This document shows positions 10,818 through 51,154 of a stretch of 64,000 nt of DNA, one piece after another. The notes under the pieces are model-generated. The model worked only from the letters and a program-made list of their open reading frames with translations, ran no database searches and was not told the origin of the DNA. Positions within the stretch are counted from its first letter, which is position 1, and each line of letters starts with the position of its first letter. The stretch is from Planctomycetaceae bacterium (GTDB lineage: Bacteria; Planctomycetota; Planctomycetia; Planctomycetales; Planctomycetaceae), in contig JANSXP010000009.1 in NCBI GenBank assembly GCA_024742875.1, positions 62,001 to 126,000 of the forward strand, in the 5' to 3' direction. Both the position numbers and the translations under genes were made by a program.

Positions 10818-10891
10818 TGGGGGTAGAGGGACTTGAACCCCCAACCAACGAATTATGAGTTCGCTGCTCTAACCGATTGAGCTATACCCCC
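10818..10891 (-). tRNA. tRNA with anticodon CAU (Met, or Ile2 if modified)
   Basis: A full cloverleaf can be drawn on the minus strand. The acceptor stem is GGGGGTA/TACCCCC, perfectly paired, with discriminator A at 10818. The D-arm is GCTCAATCGGTTAGAGC. The anticodon stem GCGAA/TTCGT (one G-T) closes loop CTCATAA, giving anticodon CAT. The T-arm is GGGGGTTCAAGTCCCTC-type. CCA is not encoded. The same anticodon serves elongator Met and lysidine-modified Ile2; the sequence alone does not settle which, and the first base pair G-C argues against initiator Met. Confidence 0.95.
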
Positions 10892-48680: not shown

Positions 48681-49460
48681 TCAGTCGCTGAATTCCGGGC
48701 GACGGCCGTTCAGCTGTTCCTTCAGGCGATTGACAATGCTGGAGTGCATCTGGCTGACCCGTGACTCGGACAGTCCCAGTGTGGTGCCGATTTCCTTCAT
48801 CGTCAGCTCTTCGTAGTAATACAGGATGATGATCAGACGCTCGTTGCGATTCAGGCCTTTGGTGACCACCTTCATCACATCCAGCTTCTGAATGCCGTTG
48901 GTGGGATCTTCGCCCTTGGCATCCTGCAGCACGTCGACTTCACGGACATCCTTATAGCTGTCTGTCTCGTACCATTTCTTATTCAGGCTGACCAGGCCGA
49001 TGGCAGAGGCTTCGGATTTGTGCTTCTCAAATTCCTGGACCGACAGCCCCATTTCCAGGGCCAGTTCGCCGTCGGTGGGCGGCCGTCCGGTCTTGGCCAG
49101 AACGGCCTTCTTGGCCGCCTCCAGTTTGCTGGCCTTGCTCCGCACAAGACGCGGAACCCAGTCCATTGTCCGCAGTTCGTCCAGCATGGCCCCACGAATT
49201 CGCGGAACACAGTACGTTTCGAACTTCACGCCGCGATCCATATCGAACGCCTCGATGGCGTCCATCAGACCGAATACTCCTGCGGACATCAGATCGTTAA
49301 GATCCACACCTTCCGGGAGCTTAGCCCAGACGCGCTCTGCGTTGTATTTCACAAGCGGCAGATATCGTTCCATCAGGCGATTACGCAGCATCTGGTCGGA
49401 CTGGTCCTTCTTGAACGCAATCCATGTATCCAGAATGTCCTCGCTGATCTTGCTAGCCAT
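48681..49460 (-). CDS. RNA polymerase sigma factor, FliA/WhiG type (sigma-28)
   Basis: 259 residues, full length for this group. Region 2 (YLPLVKYNAERVWAKLP, DLNDLMSAGVFGLMDAIEAF, GVKFETYCVPRIRGAMLDEL), region 3 (DWVPRLVRSK, GRPPTDGELALEMGLSVQEF) and region 4 (NERLIIILYYYEELTMKEIG, LGLSESRVSQMHSSIV) are all intact. FliA directs flagellar genes and WhiG sporulation genes; which regulon applies here cannot be told, as no flagellar or chemotaxis gene is in the window. It is followed by a strong terminator and preceded by a 636-bp gap with structured DNA. Confidence 0.95.
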   Translation of the reverse strand: MASKISEDILDTWIAFKKDQSDQMLRNRLMERYLPLVKYNAERVWAKLPEGVDLNDLMSAGVFGLMDAIEAFDMDRGVKFETYCVPRIRGAMLDELRTMDWVPRLVRSKASKLEAAKKAVLAKTGRPPTDGELALEMGLSVQEFEKHKSEASAIGLVSLNKKWYETDSYKDVREVDVLQDAKGEDPTNGIQKLDVMKVVTKGLNRNERLIIILYYYEELTMKEIGTTLGLSESRVSQMHSSIVNRLKEQLNGRRPEFSD

Positions 49461-50096
49461 TCAATCCTCCATGACGAACAGCGACGACTGCGAGGCCGCA
49501 ACGCGCTGTAACGCACGTCATCGGTCTTTGCAGTCAGGTCGATCCAGTAAAACCACTACAAACAGCATTCGGACTTGCAGAAATCCGAAGTCAGCACACT
49601 TCCCGCAAAACATGCTGGAGGAGCGTTTGCCTGTGGGCGCGAATCGTCCCGTTCGTGTCCGAAATTTCCTCAGTATCTTTGTTCCAGACAGCCTCACGAA
49701 TCCCGGTTGCCCAAGGGCCGCTGCGATCCCGCATGTGAGGTTTGCCGTCTCTCGAATGCTTCCTGGCGTTCGATCCATTCAGGCTGACCCAAGGTCGTCC
49801 TGGCGAGCAACACTTACCTTCAATCGCTTCCTGCGTTGAACACAACTGTTGCTCGCGGGGGTTTGATACCGGTTCAAAAAAGTGGTCGCAAGACGGATGG
49901 AACCAACAAATTCCACCTTTTCTGCGACGCCGAATGGGTTCGGCACATTTAACCGGACACATGGGAGTGTGTCGGCAGAAAAGGGGGCAACACGTGTTTT
50001 CAGGCGTTCCAAACCGCCCTGCAAGATGCACAAATTGCAGGTAGAACCCCCGAGAGCCGCAGACAGCCGCGGGCTCCGTGTCCCCATCAGCGGTGA
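49461..50096. other. Long intergenic region rich in inverted repeats
   Basis: Lies between a sugar isomerase gene and the sigma-factor gene, both minus. The part at 49803-50041 folds well (listed as a candidate RNA). A separate perfect 6-bp hairpin TTCGGA/TCCGAA with a 10-nt loop is at 49568-49589. At 50054-50078 an imperfect stem follows the isomerase stop and may end its transcript. Frames of up to 146 codons on either strand lack protein-like features. Confidence 0.5.
49803..50041. ncRNA. Candidate structured RNA
   Basis: A set of pairings seen by eye. P1: GCGAGCAACA (49803-49812) with TGTTGCTCGC (49847-49856), perfect 10 bp, enclosing CAAtCGC/GCGTTG (49821-49838, one bulge). P2: GGTTC (49871-49875) with GAACC (49900-49904), enclosing GTC-GCAA-GAC, a GNRA-type loop. 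P3: CCTTTTCTGC (49916-49925) with GCAGAAAAGG (49975-49984), perfect 10 bp. P3 encloses P4, GCCGAA/TTCGGC (49929-49944), and P5, GACACA/TGTGTC (49956-49973), as a three-way junction; both loops start TGGG. P6: CCTGCAA/TTGCAGG (50018-50041), perfect 7 bp. The GNRA loop favours the plus strand, opposite to both neighbours. It does not match RNase P, tmRNA or SRP RNA by their best-known motifs. Confidence 0.45.
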
Positions 50097-51017
50097 TCAG
50101 ACATCGCAGACCATCGCCGCGTGTCGCAGCGCGAGCACGGGATCGTCCCAGGTCGGAATGAACTCCTGCGCCACGTACAGATCAAACCCGGTTGCCAGAA
50201 TGGCCTTCATGACAGCCGGATAGTTAATCTCCTGCGTGTCATCCAGCTCTTTGCGGCCCGGGTTTCCTGCGGTGTGGTAATGTCCAATCCAGGGGTGAAA
50301 CTCGCGAATACGGCGGATGACGTCGCCGTTCATAATCTGCACATGATAGACGTCAAACAGCAGCTTAAAGCGGGGACTGTCCATGCGACGCACCAGATCA
50401 ACGCATCGTTCGACGTCGTCGCCAAAATAGCCCGGGTGCCCTTTCATCGGGTGAGAGTCGTCCCGGGAATTCAAATGCTCCAGCACAATGGTCACGCCTT
50501 TTTCCTCAGCGTAGCCAATGACCTGCTTCCAGCAGTCCAGACAGTTTTGCTCGGCAACCGCCTGGGCCATGCCCGCCACGCTCATGCCCGTGAATGTAAT
50601 CACGCTGGGCGCCTTGAATTTGACGGCGGTATCGATGGACTGACGCAGTTTGGCGATGCACTCGGCGTGATTCGCCCGATCAGCCGGCCCTTTGGCGAAG
50701 CCGTGGCTGCTCACCAGAGAAATCTTCAGGCCGGCCTTCACCGCCTCGGGGTAAAACTTCGGATCAATTCCCTCAATGGCCTCCAGGCCAATATCAGCAC
50801 AGTGCCGGATCAACTCGGGGACTGGCATGGGCTTAAAGCACCAGCCCATGACCGACTGGCGGATTCTGCCGTTTTTGATCTTAAAGTCGGCAGGCGTGCG
50901 AGACTGTTCAATCTGAGCGGCGTTGGCCGCGGAGCCACCGAGGCTGCCTGTGGCGGCGGCACTGGCCGCCAGTCCGGCGGAGAGAAGCTGGCGGCGGGAA
51001 AGGGAAGGTGAAGACAT
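50097..51017 (-). CDS. Sugar phosphate isomerase/epimerase-type TIM-barrel protein
   Basis: 306 residues from the ATG at 51017, which begins a Tat-like signal (LSRRQLLSAGLAASAAATGS). The xylose-isomerase-like barrel resembles hydroxypyruvate isomerase: RQSVMGWCFKPMPVPELIRH, IGLEAIEGID, VTIVLEHLNSRDD with the metal Glu, FKLLFDVYHVQIMNGDV with Asp and His, GHYHTAGNPGRKEL and LYVAQEFIPTWDD with the last Glu. All four expected metal ligands are present, so it should be active. An exported sugar isomerase is typical for planctomycetes. The reading frame is open further upstream but across the rpsD terminator, so the longer start is not credible. Confidence 0.9.
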   Translation of the reverse strand: MSSPSLSRRQLLSAGLAASAAATGSLGGSAANAAQIEQSRTPADFKIKNGRIRQSVMGWCFKPMPVPELIRHCADIGLEAIEGIDPKFYPEAVKAGLKISLVSSHGFAKGPADRANHAECIAKLRQSIDTAVKFKAPSVITFTGMSVAGMAQAVAEQNCLDCWKQVIGYAEEKGVTIVLEHLNSRDDSHPMKGHPGYFGDDVERCVDLVRRMDSPRFKLLFDVYHVQIMNGDVIRRIREFHPWIGHYHTAGNPGRKELDDTQEINYPAVMKAILATGFDLYVAQEFIPTWDDPVLALRHAAMVCDV

Positions 51018-51154
51018 AGCGGACCCCCAGTGCAGTCGCGAAAAAAACGGCCAATGAAGCGTGGAGCCGGTGGAAGCCGCACCAGCGCGGACGCCATTTG
51101 TAGGCACTTCGTTCGGCAGAAAAAAGCGACCGGCACGCGAGCACGGCAGGGCGC

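Follow-up and report, generated by a model that had tools for sequence, protein, structure and literature searches.

The intergenic stretch at positions 49461–50096 of the window (the whole 64-kb stretch of DNA analyzed here, from a genome of 8.18 Mb) contains perfect inverted repeats, and the question is whether they form an independent RNA or belong to the control region of a neighboring gene. Both neighbors are encoded on the minus strand: a sigma factor gene (48681–49460; 259 aa) and a gene for a xylose isomerase-like TIM-barrel protein (about 50097–51018). The sigma factor gene product scored 255.6 bits against NCBIfam TIGR02479, whose curated cut-off is 189.6, and matched Pfam sigma-70 regions 2, 3, and 4; with the cut-off passed, it is a member of the FliA/WhiG sigma factor family. 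At another locus (L242), the sigma factor gene encodes about 60 additional N-terminal residues, which follow an ACCACGGAGGGT start region.

Stems of the intergenic region

The initial annotation had described two perfect 10-bp stems in this non-coding DNA, and both were found: P1, with arms at 49803–49812 and 49847–49856, and P3, with arms at 49916–49925 and 49975–49984. The two 6-bp hairpins that it placed inside one of these stems were present within P3, at 49929–49934/49939–49944 (loop TGGG) and 49956–49961/49968–49973 (loop TGGGAG), as was the flanking perfect 7-bp hairpin at 50018–50024/50035–50041. Its view that such stems seldom arise by chance was borne out by dinucleotide shuffling of the 636-nt intergenic region: of 1000 shuffles, 3.9% contained at least one and 0.1% at least two perfect 10-bp stems with loops of up to 60 nt. 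The predicted fold of 49780–50060 was more stable than that of all 200 shuffles on both strands, with z-scores of −4.68 (plus) and −5.60 (minus), so the folding energy of this region is strand-blind. The search with Rfam covariance models that had been recommended was carried out with 4227 families on 49300–50500 and gave no match at E-values up to 5; a known Rfam RNA was thus dropped as a candidate. Within the whole window, the sole match at the Rfam gathering threshold was a tRNA gene at 10818–10891 on the minus strand.

A conserved block upstream of the sigma factor gene

A DNA search of 39 genomes yielded one clear match from the same genus (E = 2.9e-15, 81% over 84 nt), covering 49878–49961 of the window, and a weaker match at the same place in a second genome of the genus (E = 7.4e-4); the remaining matches were weak or lay elsewhere. 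On the strand of the sigma factor gene, a −35/−10-like pair was located about 430–515 nt before the ATG in all eight genomes of the genus. Using the box 2 motif described below with up to three mismatches, 18 homologues were picked from 34 regions upstream of sigma factor genes (L021–L037 and L046). Their alignment over this block had 125 columns, one of which was gapped, and TGCCG, CGGTT, TGCCG, AAA, and TATCA were invariant.

In the window, all elements of the block are on the minus strand. Box 1, TTTTCTGCCGAC, is at 49971–49982, and its TGCCG begins 32 nt upstream of the TGCCG in box 2, CCGGTTAAATGTGCCGAAC (49938–49956), in which CGGTT and TGCCG are the invariant parts. Another conserved element, TTCCATCCGTC (49892–49902), adjoins the −35-like element TTGCGA (49886–49891; TGGACA in other genera), which is separated by a 17-nt spacer from the −10-like element TATCAA (49863–49868), including the invariant TATCA. 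The distance between box 2 and the −10-like element was fixed at 88–89 nt in the 18 homologues. Judged from this alignment, the even spacing of the boxes with variable letters between them is what protein-binding DNA, rather than an RNA fold, shows. In the block, RNAalifold predicted four pairs within box 2, all of them invariant, and found no covariation.

To survey the distribution of the block, we used a sequence-only model (R1) built on the 18 homologues and counted matches with E-values below 1e-12 as strong. Strong matches were obtained in 31 of the 170 genomes of the family, from the genera g1 (8), g43 (3), g60 (3), and g66 (17), and the 13 genomes added beyond the 18 used for training were all from g66. 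Seven weak matches (E = 2.5e-4 to 8e-3), including three at an additional place in genomes that already had a strong one, were not counted. Among 198 genomes drawn from the class, seven had an R1 match with an E-value of 0.001 or less, and these belonged to g1, g43, and g66; the block was not found outside the four genera named above. It preceded the sigma factor gene in all 30 loci, the −10-like element lying 300–568 nt ahead of the ATG, whereas the isomerase gene was upstream in three of the 30, the window included (within at most about 1.6 kb of upstream DNA). The block therefore belongs to the sigma factor gene.

These results bear on the strand and on the three-way junction that the initial annotation had proposed for P3 and its inner hairpins, P3a and P3b. 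P3 (49916–49984, minus strand) is present in the window but not conserved; it lies upstream of the predicted transcript start and overlaps boxes 1 and 2. Over the 18 homologues, 48.2% of the cells in P3, P3a, and P3b were paired, compared with a shuffled mean of 47.5% (136 of 500 shuffles reached the observed value), and seven pairs were altered on both sides, compared with 5.1 in shuffles (49 of 500 reached seven). When the structure was slid along the alignment, 35.6–42.2% were paired, a comparison that favors the unslid version, as the structure came from one row. The compensatory changes in P3 that had been suggested as a check were thus not borne out in these homologues, and we read P3, P3a, and P3b as a probable peculiarity of the window sequence alone. 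The GNRA loop cited in favor of the plus strand is a GCAA tetraloop, the reverse complement of TTGC in the −35-like element at 49886–49891 of the minus strand. As this element is conserved, its complementary loop is no argument for the plus strand. With pairing and double changes near shuffled levels, the plus-strand three-way junction was rejected, while the option that the initial annotation had left as an alternative, a minus-strand leader of the sigma factor gene, gained support from the promoter-like block preceding that gene.

We infer a promoter role for this block from its conservation together with the hairpin locked to the predicted transcript start. A consensus sigma-70 promoter was rejected, as a scan for TTGACA/TATAAT at a spacing of 16–18 nt found none and the pair in the window matches this consensus poorly; visual inspection of the spacing also led us to reject boxes 1 and 2 as sigma-54 or FliA-type elements. 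An operator repeated throughout the genome was also rejected. The box 2 pattern had one exact copy in its own genome and, with up to two mismatches, 23 places compared with 17 for the reversed control; the operator model gave one strong match in each of the eight genomes of the genus, and the best remaining match had an E-value of 0.066. The sequence pattern adjoining the −35-like element also had one exact copy, with 140 places at up to two mismatches compared with 57 for the reversed control, and is no clean singleton. Present as one strong copy in each genome, the tandem-box block offers a handle for finding the cognate regulator.

Closer to the ATG lies another conserved stretch, in which 10 of the 18 leaders have RCCGAT[AG] at positions −61 to −67 (49519–49525 of the window, minus strand). 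It resembles the −10 element of sigma-28 promoters and might serve as a self-driven promoter proximal to the gene. In this genome, RCCGATA was absent from two loci with flagellin domains, and the sigma-28-like reading stays marginal.

The predicted leader and its hairpins

Judging from the distance between the −10-like element and the ATG, the predicted 5′ leader in the window is about 396 nt long (49461–49856, minus strand), and the homologous leaders are about 290–560 nt. The P1 hairpin (49803–49856, minus strand; apex CGC-AGGAA-GCG) would form its 5′ end, as the 5′ arm of P1 begins 12 nt past the T of TATCA, at the predicted transcript start. The leaders were compared in a set of 25, obtained from the 30 loci by removing five near-duplicates (shared 8-mers over 140 nt, a loose filter, so that the leaders are not fully independent); one strong match (in genome G166) had no locus and was excluded. 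For the 60-nt segment beginning at the predicted start, the mean folding z-score was −2.70 (standard error 0.48), with 12 of the 25 leaders below −2, and for those starting 20 and 40 nt upstream it was +0.13 and +0.48, respectively. Dips were also seen at other positions, with mean z-scores of −1.3 (+40), −1.4 (+60), and −1.0 (−120). A single 5′-terminal hairpin starting from base 1–8, with a length of 51–70 nt and 15–26 pairs, was predicted in 22 of the 25 leaders, the exceptions being L099, L105, and L115; in 200 shuffles the count averaged 9.6 and did not exceed 17, and at other offsets it was 3–14. The sense fold was lower in energy than the antisense fold in just 15 leaders, and the energy is strand-blind in this respect. 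These counts show that the predicted 5′ hairpin is retained by shape and place while its sequence drifts. The conservation that had been proposed as a check for P1 thus holds in a looser form, with the hairpin staying in position and its sequence drifting beyond alignment. Of the earlier interpretation as a whole, P1 and the minus-strand leader stood and the plus-strand junction did not. A terminator-like hairpin inside the leader of the window (49589–49568, minus strand) could be an attenuator; the 900-nt region contained two terminator-like hairpins, compared with 0.9 in shuffles.

Hairpins of at least four pairs with an ANGGAN hexaloop were found in 15 of the 25 leaders and in none of their antisense strands; shuffled leaders gave a mean of 0.59 and a maximum of 3 (300 shuffles). 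Among the 64 loop types A-N-xyz-N on stems of at least four pairs, GGA ranked at the top with these 15 leaders, and the runner-up was found in three. The stems vary, as in GAACGC-AUGGAU-GCGUUC, GAGUC-AUGGAU-GACUC, and AAGGC-AAGGAU-GCCUU. When one stem mismatch was allowed, the closing pair was C-G in 17 of 17 hairpins, for which only a Watson-Crick pair had been demanded. These 17 were preselected for the loop and a stem of at least four pairs with one mismatch, so that their pairing percentage follows in part from the selection; the hexaloop is tested fairly by the loop comparison in the 25 leaders with shuffles and antisense strands. Even with one stem mismatch permitted, eight leaders had no hexaloop. 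The exact loop was located within the 5′ hairpin in just three of the 25 (L105, L111, and L113). Plain GGA and ANGGA were not raised in the 18 leaders (149 and 35 occurrences, compared with 157.6 and 38.8, respectively), and CANGGA was mildly raised (17 compared with 11.3; 10 of 200 shuffles reached 17).

In the leader of the window itself, no exact ANGGAN hexaloop was found. Its nearest forms are a pentaloop, AGGAA, at the apex of P1 and a tetraloop, GGAU, in UGCG-GGAU-CGCA (49722–49733, minus strand), at about +126 of the leader. In five other leaders of the genus the hexaloop is at +126 to +138, and in a sixth (L105) at +22. The window is thus a weak case for an upstream CsrA-type site.

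The Shine-Dalgarno region of the window, CATGGAGGATTGA (49461–49473, minus strand), contains a CsrA-type ANGGAG at 49467–49472. This site reads ATGGAG, its closing stem has only two pairs, and it was predicted to be paired in the full-length fold. Among the best 80 of 582 sigma factor gene loci, which are related to each other and include some titled Blastopirellula, Singulisphaera, and Isosphaeraceae, four had no GGAG Shine-Dalgarno, and ANGGAG was present in all 76 that were scored, with at least two closing pairs in 73. The corresponding counts for 45 other ORFs were 8 and 1 (one of the original 46, a sigma factor gene with a longer N-terminus, was removed). Of the 76 other upstream regions of the family, about 15 have the Shine-Dalgarno site in a hairpin of at least four pairs, for example AACC-ACGGAG-GGUU. 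Two loci (L257 and L261; Isosphaeraceae/Planctomycetales) had a perfect ANGGAN hairpin 20–27 nt before the Shine-Dalgarno region, a layout of two sites like that of glgC. Upstream of a flagellin gene in the same genome as the window (L268), two hairpins of the leader are possible CsrA sites: ACUCC-AUGGAC-GGAGU, located about 110 nt ahead of the matched start, and the three-pair CAC-AGGGAC-GUG.

CsrA genes are numerous in these genomes, with eight in that of the window, 12 in another (G004), and 7–12 across the eight genomes of the genus. All eight CsrA proteins of the genome contain L4, R6, and R44, the last of which is part of the RNA-binding surface of CsrA (PMC7652899). FliW was sought in this genome and not found; a survey lists Planctomycetes among the groups possibly using FliW and describes the flagellin mRNA of Bacillus subtilis as a CsrA target (PMC4682653). 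The predicted sigma-54 regulon of Planctomycetia is enriched in csrA genes (PMC12316311). The CsrA homologue RsmE contacts ANGGAN hexaloops, and CsrA ligands selected by SELEX mostly have six-base loops with AC pairing with GU around them and four or fewer pairs (PMC7652899). In the leaders, some hexaloop hairpins have 8–15 pairs, and most sites, at about 290–470 nt from the Shine-Dalgarno sequence, lie outside the 10–63 nt over which two CsrA sites can be bridged (PMC7652899).

A proposed CsrA-controlled leader and its alternatives

Taken together, these features point, with a probability of roughly 0.7, to a promoter and CsrA-controlled leader of the sigma factor gene on the minus strand, with a transcript that starts with a hairpin kept by shape. 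The region would then comprise a distal promoter together with the 5′-terminal 54 nt of the leader. The two TGCCG boxes, whose 32-nt distance corresponds to about three helix turns, would probably bind a regulator that aids RNA polymerase, and transcription would start near 49856, as suggested by the conservation. The 5′ hairpin, P1 in the window, most likely shields the transcript 5′ end from decay, and the hexaloop hairpins and the ANGGAG Shine-Dalgarno are most likely CsrA sites. By binding the leader and the ribosome site, CsrA would set the amount of sigma factor made. Repression at the Shine-Dalgarno seems likelier than stabilization at the 5′ end, because that site is the most widely kept. 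It is about an even bet that planctomycetes gate FliA/WhiG sigma factor synthesis via CsrA in this manner, through a leader defined by geometry and not by sequence: a 5′ hairpin, a C-ANGGAN-G hairpin, and an ANGGAG Shine-Dalgarno.

Other explanations were weighed against this reading. The hairpins may act independently of CsrA, as mRNA stabilizers or as a site for another RNA-binding protein, with promoter and leader as proposed. The retention of the 5′ hairpin without its sequence and the lack of an exact hexaloop in the window would fit, but ANGGAN stands out from the set of 64 loop types and does so on the sense strand alone, its closure is C-G throughout, and the Shine-Dalgarno context is unlike that of the 45 other ORFs; we regard this alternative as unlikely. 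It is also unlikely that the same promoter drives a short minus-strand regulatory RNA that ends before the sigma factor gene and acts in trans, for example by holding CsrA. A strong start-locked hairpin, GGA hairpins, the length of the leader, and the terminator-like hairpin in the window are what such an RNA could have, whereas most hexaloop-bearing leaders contain one hexaloop (two in L089 and L098), which is few for a sponge, and the Shine-Dalgarno site fits control in cis. A strict terminator scan found none in the 25 leaders, a weak argument, since shuffles also gave just 0–2 of 25.

A structured non-coding RNA transcribed independently from the plus strand would account for the rarity of the two 10-bp stems and for the fold z-score of that strand. 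Since P3 and its inner hairpins are unconserved, the conserved letters form evenly spaced boxes, the GNRA loop complements the −35-like element, and hexaloop hairpins are found on the strand of the sigma factor gene and not on the other, we consider it highly improbable.

The CsrA-controlled leader would have parallels among leaders bound by CsrA or RsmA. As in E. coli glgC (PMC7652899), a GGA hairpin in the leader is combined with a GGA site over the Shine-Dalgarno; in contrast to glgC, the hairpin sites are about 290–470 nt away from it, the window has no exact hexaloop, and binding is predicted. The E. coli flhDC leader, which CsrA stabilizes by binding close to the 5′ end (PMC7652899), is likewise that of a flagellar regulator and has a 5′-end structure, and GGA sites are located there in relatives of the window; the gene here is the sigma factor itself, and stabilization would be a prediction. 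The E. coli fliA mRNA, from the same sigma factor family, was bound by CsrA in gel shifts (PMC5694010); the piece used there covered −30 to +165 around the start codon, and the account of that experiment describes no long hairpin leader. Among the literature titles and abstract openings searched, a scope largely outside subscription papers, no paper described this leader or a planctomycete sigma factor as a CsrA target.

The 5′ hairpin would also provide a worked case of an RNA structure missed by alignment-based searches, because its sequence drifts while its place and shape stay. If the proposed reading is true, CsrA would control the flagellar-type sigma factor of many planctomycetes, whose genomes carry many copies of CsrA.
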